DNA of 42,065 nt, from NCBI GenBank assembly GCA_013152435.1, contig JAADGJ010000143.1, positions 1 through 42,065 of the forward strand, read 5' to 3'. Made by a program: the position numbers and the translations under genes. The DNA is from Chloroflexota bacterium (GTDB taxonomy: Bacteria > Chloroflexota > Anaerolineae > DUEN01). Below the pieces are notes generated by a model. The model ran no database searches. It was not told the origin of the DNA and was given only the letters and a program-made list of their open reading frames with translations. Positions 391 through 39,930 of this stretch are shown here, piece after piece; position 1 is the stretch's first letter, and every line of letters begins with the position of its first letter.

Positions 391-803
391 CTAAACCCCT
401 GCATGGATAACGTTCATCACGTTGTACTTTCCTCTCAATCTGACAGCGTGTCTGAAAATTTACCGGCAAGATGCTTTGAGGAGGCTCCCTCAACCGCCAG
501 CTCCACAGGGGGAGGTGTGGAGGGGGCCTCCCTTCCACAGAAATCCCACCTTTCCGGCCTGTACCTGTCTCTCTCGGCCCTTCCCGAAGGGCCCAGGCCG
601 AGGCCAAGCAGGTCGAGGGCAAAAGAAGGGTTTTCTCCGGAGGGGCTCCCCCCAACAGAAGCAACAGCATTTTTCAGACACACTCTGACAGCCCATTCAA
701 CGAACTCCCGCAGGTCGTCGCCGTAGGAGACGCTGTCGTCCCGCAGGTCGTGGCAATAGTTCCAGACGCGCTGGGCGATGGTGGATGTGGTGGATGCGGT
801 CAT
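391..803 (-). pseudogene. hsdM-like 5' fragment, carrying an inserted inverted-repeat element
   Basis: The ORF starting with ATG at 803 reads MTASTTSTIAQRVWNYC followed by HDLRDDSVSYGD. This is the typical N-terminus of type I restriction methyltransferase subunits (HsdM), which normally continue for about 480 residues. Here the similarity stops after some 30 residues. The frame then meets the right end of the 240-bp element at 684. Taking out the element and one copy of its flanking CTGAC joins the frame to a short tail that stops at TAG 391-393, about 55 codons in all. The ATG overlaps the stop of the transposase gene as ATGA. No methyltransferase motif, hsdS or hsdR is present, so this is a remnant or a small ORF of unknown use. 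Confidence 0.5.
445..684. mobile_element. MITE-like non-autonomous element, copy 1 (240 bp)
   Basis: The ends are imperfect inverted repeats: AGCGTGTCTGAAAA on the left and TTTTCAGACACACT on the right. The 5-bp sequence CTGAC sits directly outside both ends (440-444 and 685-689), as expected of a target-site duplication. The interior closely resembles a second copy at 23233-23489. Both contain a CTCCACA/TGTGGAG hairpin and the GGAAATCCCACCTTTCC-type block, and neither codes for a transposase. The element lies in the hsdM-like fragment, downstream of the transposase. The short ORFs inside it are by-products of its base composition. I cannot name the IS family that mobilises it. Confidence 0.75.
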
Positions 804-1690: not shown

Positions 1691-3931
1691 TCAGCGCACA
1701 ACTTCGATCACGGCGATCCGGATGGCGTTATCCACTACGGCGTCCGTCACCGGCGAGACGGGCAGCCGAACGCCGTCCTCCAGGGTGTACATGCCCACCA
1801 ACAGCGGGTAGAAGCCAGGCGGCGTATCCTCCGGCACCGGCAATTGATAACGATCCACCACCGGCCACCCGGGCTCCCAGGCTATGGTGGGCCAGGCGCC
1901 ATCCAGCGGGGTCTTGTCGTGTTGCGTGATCACGGAGCGACGATCATCCTCCAGGTGGGTGAACACGGTGAAGCTGCGATTCACAGGAGCCGTCGCTCGC
2001 CAATACAGCGTCACCGTCACGGTCTCGCCAGGACGGACCTGCGCCGACGACAGATCGAAGCCGTCCAGAACGATGGCGTTGCCCAGCCGGAAATCCAACG
2101 GCTCCGCAGGCGTCACAGAGGGGCGCTCCCGCGGCAGGACGCGGATCCAACCGATGAGATTATCCATCTGGTTCCCATCGGCATCGAACGTGGGGATCCC
2201 CTGCTGGGATTCACGATCGAACAGGCCGACATTTACACGGGCGACGGTAGGCACTGGCGCATCATGACGAATGAGCACAGGATAGCGATCCGGCAGAACG
2301 GTCCCCGGGCGCAACAGACGGGTGGGCAACGTCCCCATCCCGGGCCAGGTATCCACCTGCCCGATCACCCGCCCGTCCGGCGTCAACACGTGCACGAAGA
2401 CGCTGTAATCACGACGGAAATGCCTCAAAGGCTCCCAGTACACGGTCAGCCACAAAGTCTCGCCTGGGGTCACCGTATCCTGCTGGATCTCGGCGCCCAC
2501 AACCCGCATCAGATCGTCATGATAGATGGGATCCATGCGCGCCGATGCCGGCACCATCTCCGGACGAATGTAGCGGGGACGCGCATACGCCGGCTTGATC
2601 ACATAAAACGGCGAGGCCACGGTGAAGACAAACATGAACCCCACCAACGCCCCCATCCAATATCGGCGCCACGTCCTCGGCACCCACTGGCACCATCCCA
2701 GGGCCGTCAGGAGCATCACCGCGGAGATGGCGGGGAACAGGAGGCGTCCCTGCGTCCCCGGCGTCAGGCGGGTCCAGCGCACAAGCCCGGCGAACAGGAG
2801 AGCCAGCCACCCGGTCGGCAGCGTGAGCCACCACACCTCACGCGGGATCGGCGGCTTCCCTCGCCGCCACAGCCCCACCAGCAACCCGCCAAGAGAGATC
2901 ACGCCGATCGCGTCCAGCACGCGATAGATCCACGTGGGCACCAGGATGCTGAACCACCCGAACAGTGCCCAGAACGAGATGCGCAACCCTTCAAACTCCT
3001 TGCCCAGCTGCGCCAGGGTGGGCGGGTTCTCCCGAGGTCCCACGATCTGAAGCATGACGTTGAGCCCTGTAGGATCCCCGTACAGCCGCCAGTTGCGCAC
3101 ATACCACCACCCCGAGATCGCCAGCGCGCTGCCGAAGACGATGAGACTATCGCGCCACAGCCGGCGCCACCGTCGAGCCATGCCGGCTCTGGCGACCAGG
3201 ATGATCGCGGCGAGGAGCCAGAGGAAGAGCCCGCTCAGCTTGGCCAGGGCGGCCAGCCCCAGCGTCACCCCCAAGGCGAGGTCAGTCACGCCGTCCTGGC
3301 CCTGCAACACCCGAACCAGCCACCATAACGCCAGCGTGGACAGGAACACGATGGCCGAGTCGTTGCTCACCGCCGCGTGGATGAAGTCGAACTGGGGGGT
3401 AAAGGCGACCAGCGCGGCCGCCCCGTGGGCGATGACCGGACGGCCGGGCAGCAGCGCCTGGGCCACCCGGTAGGTCAGATAGACGGTCCCAGCTCCCAGC
3501 AATGTGGAAAGGAGGCGGATCAGATGGACGGCCAACACGGTGCCATGATAGGGCCAACGCTCCCGCGGCAGATGCACGAAGCGGTTCTTATTCCCCGGCA
3601 GGGTGGGGTTCCCAATATTGGCGTGCGCGTTGAACCACAACAGCTCATACGCGTCACTGGTATCGATCCAGCGGGTCGCCAACGCCGCCAGCGCGTAGTA
3701 GAGGGGAGGCTGGCTCCCCTCCTGCGCCCACAGATCTCCCCGCTCTGGCACCTGCACAGGGAGGCCGTTCCCGTCGGCCAGATGCTTGACGTAGAAATAG
3801 TGGTGATACTCGTCCGGGGTCTCGAACAGGGGGACGGTCACGTTGTAGATCGTCGCCACGCCCAGGTAGGCAAGCAGGATCACCCAGATCGGGCGCGGGC
3901 GGGTGAGGCGCTTACGCCACCCCAAGGGCAC
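1691..3931 (-). CDS. GT-C glycosyltransferase (GT39-like) with two tandem C-terminal beta domains
   Basis: This is an integral membrane glycosyltransferase of 746 residues. The first transmembrane segment (about 15-33) is followed by the catalytic-type loop FETPDEYHHY (Asp40, Glu41), then about ten hydrophobic segments to roughly residue 450. The last 280 residues form two similar soluble domains. Each begins with a (V)xPGETxxxTxYW strand and contains a FVH/FTH-L strand, suggesting a duplicated extracytoplasmic carbohydrate-binding or linker module. GTG at 3931 is chosen because GGAGGT lies six bases upstream; the ATG at 3964 has no such site. The gene overlaps the end of the GT4 gene by 20 bp and is last in a three-gene glycosyltransferase operon. 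Substrate is not known. Confidence 0.85.
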   Translation of the reverse strand: MPLGWRKRLTRPRPIWVILLAYLGVATIYNVTVPLFETPDEYHHYFYVKHLADGNGLPVQVPERGDLWAQEGSQPPLYYALAALATRWIDTSDAYELLWFNAHANIGNPTLPGNKNRFVHLPRERWPYHGTVLAVHLIRLLSTLLGAGTVYLTYRVAQALLPGRPVIAHGAAALVAFTPQFDFIHAAVSNDSAIVFLSTLALWWLVRVLQGQDGVTDLALGVTLGLAALAKLSGLFLWLLAAIILVARAGMARRWRRLWRDSLIVFGSALAISGWWYVRNWRLYGDPTGLNVMLQIVGPRENPPTLAQLGKEFEGLRISFWALFGWFSILVPTWIYRVLDAIGVISLGGLLVGLWRRGKPPIPREVWWLTLPTGWLALLFAGLVRWTRLTPGTQGRLLFPAISAVMLLTALGWCQWVPRTWRRYWMGALVGFMFVFTVASPFYVIKPAYARPRYIRPEMVPASARMDPIYHDDLMRVVGAEIQQDTVTPGETLWLTVYWEPLRHFRRDYSVFVHVLTPDGRVIGQVDTWPGMGTLPTRLLRPGTVLPDRYPVLIRHDAPVPTVARVNVGLFDRESQQGIPTFDADGNQMDNLIGWIRVLPRERPSVTPAEPLDFRLGNAIVLDGFDLSSAQVRPGETVTVTLYWRATAPVNRSFTVFTHLEDDRRSVITQHDKTPLDGAWPTIAWEPGWPVVDRYQLPVPEDTPPGFYPLLVGMYTLEDGVRLPVSPVTDAVVDNAIRIAVIEVVR

Positions 3932-5120
3932 GATAGACCTCCAGATGGCGCGCCGCGATGTCATCCCAGCGGAAGGCCTCAGCCAGCTGACGAGCCCCCT
4001 GCCCGATCCGCTCCCGCAACAGGGGATCGGACATGAGACGCTGTACAGCGTTCGCCACTCCGGAGGGGTCCTCGGGCGACACCAACAGGACATTCTCGCC
4101 ATCGGCCAGCCGGGGAATGCTGAACGCCGTCGGGGACGGCGGCTCCCCCGGCGCACGGGTCGTCACGATCGGCAGGCCGTGTACCAGAGCGGCCATCAGG
4201 CTCCCCCGCCGGAACGAGGCGCCATCCCGATACGGGAGCACGCAGATGTCGGCCGCCATCAGGTAAGCCGAAACCTCCGGCTCCGGCACATACCCGGTCC
4301 AATGAACCCGCTCCACCAGCCCCAGCCGGTCGATCAACTGCTGCACTCGCCTCAAGTAGGCCACGTTGGTGGGATCGCTGGCGCCCACCTGCCCGCCGAC
4401 CATCAACAGATGCGCGGGCACGCCGCGACGCACCAACTCGGCCAGGGCCAGGATCAGCGTCTCGCCCCCCTTGCTCGCGTTGAGGAACCCGAAGTAGCAC
4501 AGCAAGAGGTCCTCGGGGCGTACCCCCACCTTCGCCCGCCAATCCCCTCGATCGTAGCCGGCCGGGGGACGCGCCTGAATGTTGCTGCCGATGGGGATCA
4601 GATCCAACATGCCGACGCCACCCGCCGACTGCAACGTCTGGAAGTCCGCCGCGTTGGTGGTGATGGCCACATCCGAAGCCCGGGCCAGGCGGAACACCGC
4701 CCAGCGGCGCAATGGGCCGGCCTTGGGGAAGAGATAGGGCACCTTCAGATCGTGGAAGGTCACCGCCAGGCGCGGCCGGGTCTCGTTCTGCAGGAAGCGG
4801 GTGGGCACCAGGTTGATGGCCGGATGCATCCCGTACGCTGCCGCCTGGTACTGGACATGCACCACATCGGGCTGAATCTCACGCGCCACATCCTGGAGGA
4901 TGCGCCAAAACCGCCACCCCCAACGCGGCACGATCGCGTGCACCGTCGGCTCGATAGCCCCCTCACGATGGGGCCGCAAGTGCTCGACCCCGGCCGCCTT
5001 CGCCGTGAGCACGTGCACATCCGCCCCCAGGGCCCCCAACGCGATCCCCAACTCACGCGTGTAGTCTCCTACGCCCCCCTGCATAGGGGGGTATTCGCCC
5101 GACACCAACAGGATGCGCAT
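3912..5120 (-). CDS. Glycosyltransferase family 4 (GT-B fold)
   Basis: The 402-residue protein begins with the GT4 signature MRILLVSGEYPPMQGGVGDY, an N-terminal Rossmann start with a glycine-rich acceptor loop. It has the C-terminal nucleotide-sugar domain with GFLNASKGGETLI and the late DICVLPYRDGASFRRGSL segment, which stands where the usual E-x7-E motif occurs; the first Glu is replaced in this copy. It would transfer a sugar from a nucleotide donor to a lipid-linked or glycan acceptor at the inner face of the membrane. ATG at 5120 follows GAGG nine bases upstream and lies only 3 bp after the GT2 stop, so the two are co-translated in an envelope glycan operon. Confidence 0.88.
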   Translation of the reverse strand: MRILLVSGEYPPMQGGVGDYTRELGIALGALGADVHVLTAKAAGVEHLRPHREGAIEPTVHAIVPRWGWRFWRILQDVAREIQPDVVHVQYQAAAYGMHPAINLVPTRFLQNETRPRLAVTFHDLKVPYLFPKAGPLRRWAVFRLARASDVAITTNAADFQTLQSAGGVGMLDLIPIGSNIQARPPAGYDRGDWRAKVGVRPEDLLLCYFGFLNASKGGETLILALAELVRRGVPAHLLMVGGQVGASDPTNVAYLRRVQQLIDRLGLVERVHWTGYVPEPEVSAYLMAADICVLPYRDGASFRRGSLMAALVHGLPIVTTRAPGEPPSPTAFSIPRLADGENVLLVSPEDPSGVANAVQRLMSDPLLRERIGQGARQLAEAFRWDDIAARHLEVYRALGVA

Positions 5121-17784: not shown

Positions 17785-17911
17785 CTCTCATCTTCCAGGT
17801 CAGCCGGACACGAGGCCGCCTGCCGGAATTGGCACCGCGGTGAGGCAGCCTTCACCTCACCCGGTTGCCGGAGGTTCACAGGGCCGGTCCCTCCCCTCCT
17901 CTGGATAAGAG
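17785..17911 (-). ncRNA. SAM-I (S-box) riboswitch aptamer
   Basis: The minus-strand RNA opens with CTCTTATCCAGAGGAGGGGA, the conserved SAM-I start, followed by GGGACCGGCCC and CCGGCAACC, all hallmarks of the S-box. The P1 helix pairs CTCTTATC (17911-17904) with GATGAGAG (17792-17785), with one G-U pair. Two further hairpins fill the middle. In the family, SAM binding stabilises P1, frees the terminator and stops transcription, so the downstream genes are made when SAM is low. It controls mtnA and, by gene overlap, the methyltransferase, kinase and acetyltransferase genes. Confidence 0.95.
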
Positions 17912-23090: not shown

Positions 23091-23232
23091 TAAAGCTGCC
23101 CAAACCACCGCCTGCGATAGCGCCACGCGCGAGCTTTCCCAAGCCGACAACGGGGGCCGGGGAGGCGCAAAGGGAAATTCCCTCCGCAAAAATGTCCACC
23201 TTCTCGCCGCTACCTGCGTGGTTGGGGCTCAG

Positions 23233-23489
23233 AGCGTGTCTGAAAATCTACCGGTCAAGTATCTGAGGAGCTTCCTCGGTTACCAGCTCCACAGGGGGAG
23301 GTGTGGAGGAGACCTTCCCTCCACGGAAATCCCACCTTTCCGGCTTGCACCTGCCTTTCTCTGCCCTTCCCGAAGGACCCGGGCCGAGGCCAGGCGGGTC
23401 CGAAGGCGGAAGAAGGGCTTCTTCCGGAGGGGCTCCGCCCCTCCGGGTCTCCCCATAGCATGGGGGTAACGGCATTTCTCAGACACGCT
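23233..23489. mobile_element. MITE-like non-autonomous element, copy 2 (257 bp)
   Basis: Inverted ends AGCGTGTCTGAAAA and TTTCTCAGACACGCT enclose 257 bp closely similar to the copy at 445-684. CTCAG is repeated directly outside both ends (23228-23232 and 23490-23494). This copy keeps a perfect internal hairpin CCGGAGGGGC/GCCCCTCCGG, which is partly lost in copy 1. It has no transposase gene. Confidence 0.78.
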
Positions 23490-23551
23490 CTCAGACCGAG
23501 AGCCCTCTGCCCCAGGAGGGCAGGTGAAGGGCGAAAAGAATCCGTTTCCTC

Positions 23552-31537: not shown

Positions 31538-31610
31538 GCCACCCTAGCTCAATCGGTAGAGCAGCCGCTTCGTAAGCGGCCGGTTATCGGTTCGAGTCCG
31601 ATGGGTGGCT
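31538..31610 (+). tRNA. tRNA-Thr(CGT), copy 1
   Basis: The 73 bases fold into a full cloverleaf: acceptor GCCACCC/GGGTGGC, D arm GCTC/GAGC, anticodon stem GCCGC/GCGGC with loop TTCGTAA (anticodon CGT, reads ACG), T arm ATCGG/CCGAT with TTCGAGT. The 3' CCA is not encoded here (CTG follows the discriminator T). It is identical to the copy at 34563. Confidence 0.97.
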
Positions 31611-31647
31611 CTGTGAAACGAACAATCGCATAACCAATTGGGTATGG

Positions 31648-34562: not shown

Positions 34563-34638
34563 GCCACCCTAGCTCAATCGGTAGAGCAGCCGCTTCGTAA
34601 GCGGCCGGTTATCGGTTCGAGTCCGATGGGTGGCTCCA
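34563..34638 (+). tRNA. tRNA-Thr(CGT), copy 2, with encoded CCA
   Basis: The 73-base body (34563-34635) is identical to the copy at 31538, and here CCA follows directly (34636-34638). The anticodon loop is TTCGTAA. It has its own promoter and a strong terminator 10 bp downstream. The flanking sequences of the two copies differ, so the duplication is limited to the tRNA. Confidence 0.97.
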
Positions 34639-39625: not shown

Positions 39626-39671
39626 GAGAAATCAGCGCTCATCAGCGGGATCAGTGTCCCATTTTCAACAG
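39626..39671 (+). repeat. 46-bp direct repeat, copy A
   Basis: It matches copy B at 39885-39930 at 42 of 46 positions, and all four differences are transitions. The unit itself contains a shorter ATCAGCG repeat in tandem. The flanks also share ATCTTCGC and CGCAGAT words. Confidence 0.8.
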
Positions 39672-39884: not shown

Positions 39885-39930
39885 GAGAAATCAGCGCTTA
39901 TCAGCGAGATCAGCGTCCCATTTCCAACAG
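39885..39930 (+). repeat. 46-bp direct repeat, copy B
   Basis: Second copy of the unit at 39626-39671, in the same orientation and 213 bp further on. Both begin GAGAAATCAGCGCT and end CAACAG. Confidence 0.8.

Follow-up and report, generated by a model that had tools for sequence, protein, structure and literature searches.

Two related copies of a gene-less repeat

What is the short repeat near the start of this contig, with which bases does it begin and end, and what moved it there? The window, the whole stretch of 42,065 nucleotides that was analysed, belongs to a draft genome (G000) of 4,973,004 bases (4.97 Mb) in 149 contigs, with 95.76% completeness and 4.02% contamination. In a preliminary description, two copies of a new MITE-like family had been recognised at 445-684 and 23233-23489. 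The analysis indicates that 444-685 is very probably a MITE copy that was moved by an IS5-family transposase at CTNAG-like sites, with duplication of TNA. The features of both copies are as follows.

441-443: left target duplication of copy 1, TGA (family-wide, the duplicated part is TNA)
444-685 (+): MITE copy 1, including the symmetric end bases (earlier given as 445-684)
445-460 (+): left terminal inverted repeat of copy 1, AGCGTGTCTGAAAATT; identical letters stand at one end of the partner insertion sequence in a genome of the same genus
480-531 (+): interior hairpin of copy 1, stem 480-491 with 520-531
671-684 (-): right terminal inverted repeat of copy 1, AGTGTGTCTGAAAA on the minus strand; AGTGTGTCTGA is common to the other end of the partner
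686-688: right target duplication of copy 1, TGA (TNA duplicated across the family)
23229-23231: left target duplication of copy 2, TCA
23232-23490 (+): MITE copy 2 (earlier given as 23233-23489), subtype with an extra 15-bp hairpin arm
23426-23444 (+): palindrome GGAGGGGC-TCC-GCCCCTCC in copy 2, with the loop TCC or its reverse complement GGA depending on the copy
23491-23493: right target duplication of copy 2, TCA

The inverted ends of copy 1 lie where they had been placed, at 445-458 (AGCGTGTCTGAAAA) and 671-684 (TTTTCAGACACACT), and the inverted ends of the family, AGCGTGTCTGAAAA / AGTGTGTCTGARAA, are common to 445-684 and 23233-23489. The relationship between the two copies was also confirmed, with 83-85% identity across the aligned stretches; a repeat search of the window paired 484-614 with 23270-23400 at 85% and 614-653 with 23401-23440 at 83%. 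The element had been described as having no gene, and the ORFs overlapping copy 1 are indeed short and run across its borders. One of these, 435-803, which extends from the flank into the copy, was likened by eye to the beginning of a restriction methylase subunit; this assignment was dropped after a Pfam search of the ORF gave no match.

Several other features were observed in the window. Beside copy 1, a frame at 800-1498 on the minus strand contains an IS200-like Y1 transposase domain (PF01797) and, at 1177-1209, a 33-nt near-perfect palindrome; it is possibly the gene of a REP-associated transposase. The genes flanking copy 2 encode a YebC-like protein and CTP synthase. There are also two tRNA-Thr(CGT) genes of identical 74-nt sequence, 3 kb apart (31538-31611 and 34563-34638), a SAM riboswitch on the minus strand (17785-17911, 80.8 bits), and a 46-bp direct repeat of 91% identity whose units lie 259 bp apart (39626-39671 and 39885-39930).

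Copy number and divergence of the family

Two copies within 42 kb had suggested a frequent genome component. BLAST of copy 1 against its own genome gave at least 43 matches, with the best 40 of 318 candidates scored. The end AGCGTGTCTGAAAA, with at most one mismatch, was found at 98 + 99 = 197 sites of this genome and AGTGTGTCTGA at 45 + 58 sites, while the control patterns gave 0 + 0 in both searches. The stretches around the end sites that were analysed comprise 625,364 distinct bases (625 kb); as they were picked around ends and are no random sample, the counts from them are a lower bound for the genome. They contain 94 inverted end pairs within 3 kb. One of these, a pair 1888 bp apart at contig C37, was rejected as an element and removed before the flanks were counted; in our reading, it consists of a truncated copy and a chance site on either side of an ordinary transporter-like gene. 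The lengths of the remaining 93 paired elements range from 48 to 421 bp and cluster at 230-261 bp, most often near 238 or 255 bp. A BLAST search with the family consensus over the same bases resulted in 156 merged family places, 117 of which are at least 150 bp long, and the summed family length is at least 30,926 bp (~31 kb, or 0.6% of the genome, from the analysed stretches alone). The expected high copy number was thus borne out by 197 end sites against none for the control and by at least 156 family places. Several contigs of the draft terminate inside MITE copies, which account for some of its contig breaks.

The full-size copies (65 copies of 225-275 bp) have a median pairwise identity of 0.862 and a maximum of 0.971, and a single pair among 2080 exceeds 0.95. 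The two members of this pair, at C44 and C115, probably lie in a duplicated segment, because their 15-base left flanks are nearly identical, differing by one base. Two subtypes can be distinguished by the extra 15-bp hairpin arm, which is present in 39 of the 65 full-size copies, copy 2 included, and missing from copy 1. Sixty of the 65 copies were used in the family alignment (A1), with five poorly aligning ones excluded. A search of relatives, which had been proposed together with that of the own genome, gave one match of 80% identity in a genome of the same genus (G001) and no match in 39 others.

Target duplication and true ends of the element

We compared the five flanking bases on the left and right of the 93 copies, against shuffles. 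The middle base (position 3) of CTNAG is equal on both sides in 70 copies, for a shuffle mean of about 24, and differs in the other 23; T predominates at position 2 and A at position 4. At position 1, the two sides agree in 50/93 copies, against a shuffle mean of 50.6, and at position 5 in 68/93, against 62.7 (p about 0.03, a weak signal). An exact TNA stands on both sides of 52 copies (shuffle, 14.4), and identical flanking 5-mers occur at 25 (shuffle, 5.9). The target duplication is TNA (3 bp), perhaps and at most TNAG (4 bp), within a preferred CTNAG context. A hairpin-correction of target bases was also considered and rejected: complementary mismatches of the middle base make up only 8 of the 23, which equals chance.

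The flanking bases also define the borders of the element. Because position 1 is not duplicated and is C on the right in 87/93 copies versus 53/93 on the left, the element ends in the right-hand C, and its symmetric ends are GAGYGTGTCTGAAAA. The 5-bp duplication CTGAC that had been proposed for copy 1 could therefore not be upheld, since its C is part of the element. The pentamer, which flanks both sides of copy 1 only, was mistaken for a repeat because the left terminal base of this copy is C where most copies have G; at copy 2 the flanking 5-mer is CTCAG.

Identical 5-mers such as these (25/93) are also what would speak for an element of another family that duplicates 5 bp, for example a Tn3-derived miniature element (TIME). 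The target duplication of TIMEs is 5 bp long, but the duplication here leaves out the first of the five bases, a nested insertion site at C22 (see below) shows TAA(G) only, and the ends match those of an IS5-family insertion sequence. We regard such an origin as scarcely credible, and membership in the TIMEs was rejected because position 1 of CTNAG is not duplicated.

Empty sites and placement between genes

Empty sites, which had been suggested as a check on the borders, were obtained from a second short repeat with identical ends, family B (about 170 bp, core CACCAAGGCACTAAGACCCTAAG). It is present in the own genome as 21 merged pieces, four of them of at least 150 bp; copies are found at L062:2647-2819 (G000:C91:17646-17818) and, in G001, at L142, with fragments at C47, C61, and C39. 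Copies of the first family are nested inside family B at C76, C22, and C12 and adjoin family B pieces at C48, C106, C137, and C75. The filled site at C22 reads GAGTGTAAG-element-C-TAAGAAG, whereas the family B copies intact at this point, at C39 and C61, have a single TAAG (C61: ...GAGTGTAAGAAG...); thus, TAA(G) was doubled and the C arrives with the element. At C76, CCCTAAG-element-CAAGATAG stands against CCCYAAG in intact family B copies, and the nested site at C137 resolves less cleanly than these two. The two genes that flank copy 2 lie next to each other, with no copy between them, in G001, in G002 (same family), and in G003, where the matched stretches of the pair are about 200-310 bp apart versus 883-923 bp here; a base-level empty site was not obtained from these relatives, whose spacers are too diverged for alignment.

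Insertions are mostly found outside long reading frames. A frame of at least 200 aa spans 14 of 83 insertion sites versus 704 of 1000 random points in the same stretches; the element and one duplicate were removed before this test, and the 10 of 93 sites without a 1.2-kb flank were excluded.

A probable partner insertion sequence with the same ends

The exact end GAGYGTGTCTGAAAA was found in 18 of 396 genomes of a sample of the class, 87 times in G000, 84 times in G015, 29 times in G176, and at most five times in each of the others; a control pattern gave one match in one genome. In G364, an end pair 1050 bp apart surrounds a broken IS5-family transposase, pieces of which match PF13340, PF01609, and NF033580. 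A 113-aa piece of it led to a 1143-bp insertion sequence with an intact 271-aa transposase in G120:C191 (Thermoflexales record JACIWQ010000034.1), with CTAAG followed by AGCTAGTCTGAAAA at one end and TTTTCAGACAAGCT followed by CTGAG at the other. NCBI taxonomy places Thermoflexales in the class Thermoflexia of Chloroflexota; G120 belongs to the GTDB class of the window, which we take to be Anaerolineae.

A scan of genome contigs for relatives of this insertion sequence found 107, in Chloroflexota, Methanosarcina and its kin, cyanobacteria, Rubrobacteraceae, and others. Eighty were kept, and 59 of these loci entered the end search, resulting in 44 loci with ANNNTGTCTNANAA-type ends on both sides (at most one mismatch per end), 25 of which have an exact TNA duplication. 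Transposases of the relatives are matched by PF13340 and PF01609, and the IS5-family model NF033580 (cut-off 110) gives 256.8 bits for the G120 locus (L147) and 125.3 bits for a fragment (L250).

The same insertion sequence is found closer to the window. In the same genus, contig C190 of G001 begins inside it, with a 131-aa transposase N-terminus (70% identity to the L147 transposase over 122 aa and above the NF033580 cut-off) that is followed by TATTCAGACACACT and CTAAG, the end being AGTGTGTCTGAATA and the flank CTAAG. Contig C77 of G001 terminates inside it, with CTAAG, AGCGTGTCTGAAAATTCGAG, and then the transposase C-terminus on the other strand; the two halves, being on separate contigs, may stem from different copies. 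In G002, ends of this insertion sequence are present at several places, mostly contig edges; one copy there, with an internal deletion that leaves about 480 bp (L276, G002:C373 about 3700-4179), may represent an intermediate on the way to a MITE. Like those of the MITE, the ends of the partner differ from each other, AGCGTGTCTGAAAATT standing on one side and AGTGTGTCTGA on the other, and the MITE core has nothing in common with it beyond about 16 left-end and 11 right-end bases. Judged by these ends, flanks, and domain matches, the putative partner is an IS5-family insertion sequence, which may be IS1031-like rather than of the IS427 group, with a 3-bp TNA duplication (4 bp possible).

The preliminary description had called for a full-length insertion sequence with the same ends, and the search located one with these ends in G001, where contig edges cut it, and in G002, and not in the own assembly. 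Here, PF01609 found two transposases, both unrelated and with other ends, and PF13340 found one match. DNA of the partner gave no match in the own assembly with a 489-bp part (26/26 candidates scored) or, with a 116-bp part, among the 40 of 128 candidates that were scored. Two candidates for an autonomous partner were rejected. The PF13340 match, an IS5-type element at C67, has other ends (AGAGCCTGTTATGCACTT); the element at C12 (L037 about 2787-4229), an insertion sequence of the DDE_5 type (PF13546) whose ends are GCTCGACTTTGTACG, simply happened to insert next to a MITE copy, directly at the right target repeat of the latter.

Because no sequence of the insertion sequence was found in the own assembly and only one of 2080 pairs exceeds 95% identity, the family looks old and is probably orphaned in this genome. 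It is rather unlikely that the element is still mobile here through a multi-copy insertion sequence that was lost by short-read assembly. The location of the partner at contig ends in G001 and G002 is typical of multi-copy elements in drafts, and the own assembly is 95.8% complete, in 149 contigs of which several end within MITE copies; however, no end of the insertion sequence stands beside transposase sequence in it, and the one pair above 95% is probably a duplicated segment. A burst and orphaning of the MITE become testable by strain genomes through the contrast between this genome, with many copies and no such insertion sequence found, and the sister species, which has the insertion sequence and a single detected copy.

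Interior structure and other cores with the same ends

The interior had been described as structured, and it does fold better than 200 of 200 shuffles (z of -4.3 and -5.35), the ends contributing part of this effect. Covariation in the consensus is weak, with two-sided changes in 4/41 pairs and a term of -1.21 of -36 kcal/mol, and an Rfam search found no family at the element; a functional RNA was rejected on these two grounds. They also count against a structured transcribed regulatory or terminator-like repeat that is under selection and only incidentally mobile, for which the strong folding, the intergenic placement, and the well-conserved interior would argue. In addition, deletion derivatives as small as 48 bp persist, identical ends surround unrelated cores in other genomes, and both the ends and the target duplication are like those of an insertion sequence, so we consider a selected repeat of this kind highly improbable.

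The palindrome GAGGGGC-NNN-GCCCCTC (at most two mismatches per arm) has 46 matches in the 93 copies, in the extra-arm subtype, with the loops TCC (19), GGA (13), GAA (4), and TTC (1); the three-base loop of copy 2, TCC, is at window positions 23434-23436. GGA is the reverse complement of TCC, so that the hairpin looks as though it was flipped between copies. Elsewhere in the class, the same ends enclose other cores, forming elements of 117, 150, and 351 bp among others, in G015 (L151-L155), G176 (L157-L159 and L163), G174 (L164), and G101 (L166). BLAST similarity between these elements and the present family covers only 16-20 end bases, and their cores appear hairpin-rich by eye. A portable frame, in which the same 16-base IS5-type ends enclose unrelated, separately amplified, hairpin-rich cores with some loops flipped, is a speculative and, in our judgement, improbable extension of these observations. 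If it were true, such MITEs would arise by capturing arbitrary hairpin DNA and not only by internal deletion of an insertion sequence, and hairpins would be inverted during passage through a single-stranded or cruciform stage.

Proposed mechanism

Terminal inverted repeats, a target duplication, a short body (under about 500 bp) with no transposase gene, and many dispersed copies, hallmarks of a MITE, were found in this family. The designation MITE-like has held, by its inverted ends, target duplication, copy number, nested empty sites, and the ends of the partner. We propose that an IS5-family transposase (DUF4096 + DDE type, near the IS1031 group) would have recognised both GAGYGTGTCTGAAAA ends, excised or copied the element, and then inserted it at CTNAG-like sites with duplication of TNA. 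Amplification presumably occurred in this lineage while the insertion sequence was present; the latter may later have been lost from the lineage or may be absent from the assembly only, and the remaining MITE copies would now be mostly fossils. Mobilisation in trans by a transposase of the partner type is what we infer from the ends, the target, and the partner.

Comparison with known systems

The family is new as far as searched, and to this extent the earlier claim of a new family stands; the kind of element, an IS5-type MITE, is well known. A search of openly licensed literature on MITEs in Chloroflexi, Chloroflexota, or Anaerolineae found no paper on such an element. For Chloroflexota, the present family is a well-documented case of a high-copy MITE, with both insertion site and likely partner described. 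MITEs are viewed, in an excerpt of PMC3852290, as internally deleted insertion sequences that have no recognisable ORFs and use a transposase in trans. Excerpts of PMC10969869 describe Chunjie of Geobacter uraniireducens, an element of 178-235 bp with 37 further full copies and 57 partial ones. Likened by that description, the present family agrees with Chunjie in size, copy number, absence of genes, and intergenic location, and in having conserved ends with direct repeats, variants of different size, and numerous partial copies, whereas its host belongs to another phylum.

The IS1031 subgroup of the IS5 family, in excerpts of PMC12016507, prefers TNA and forms a 3-bp direct repeat. Our family shares with it the TNA duplication, ends of the form GA..CTGTCT/GAGYGTGTCT, and, in the partner, an IS5-family transposase, but unlike members of the subgroup the MITE has no transposase itself. 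The same excerpts assign to this subgroup ISLrh of Lacticaseibacillus rhamnosus (857 bp). Although ISLrh is a full insertion sequence with its own transposase, and its ends diverge from those of the MITE past the first dozen bases, it resembles the present element in family, in TNA target, and in the first bases of the inverted repeat.
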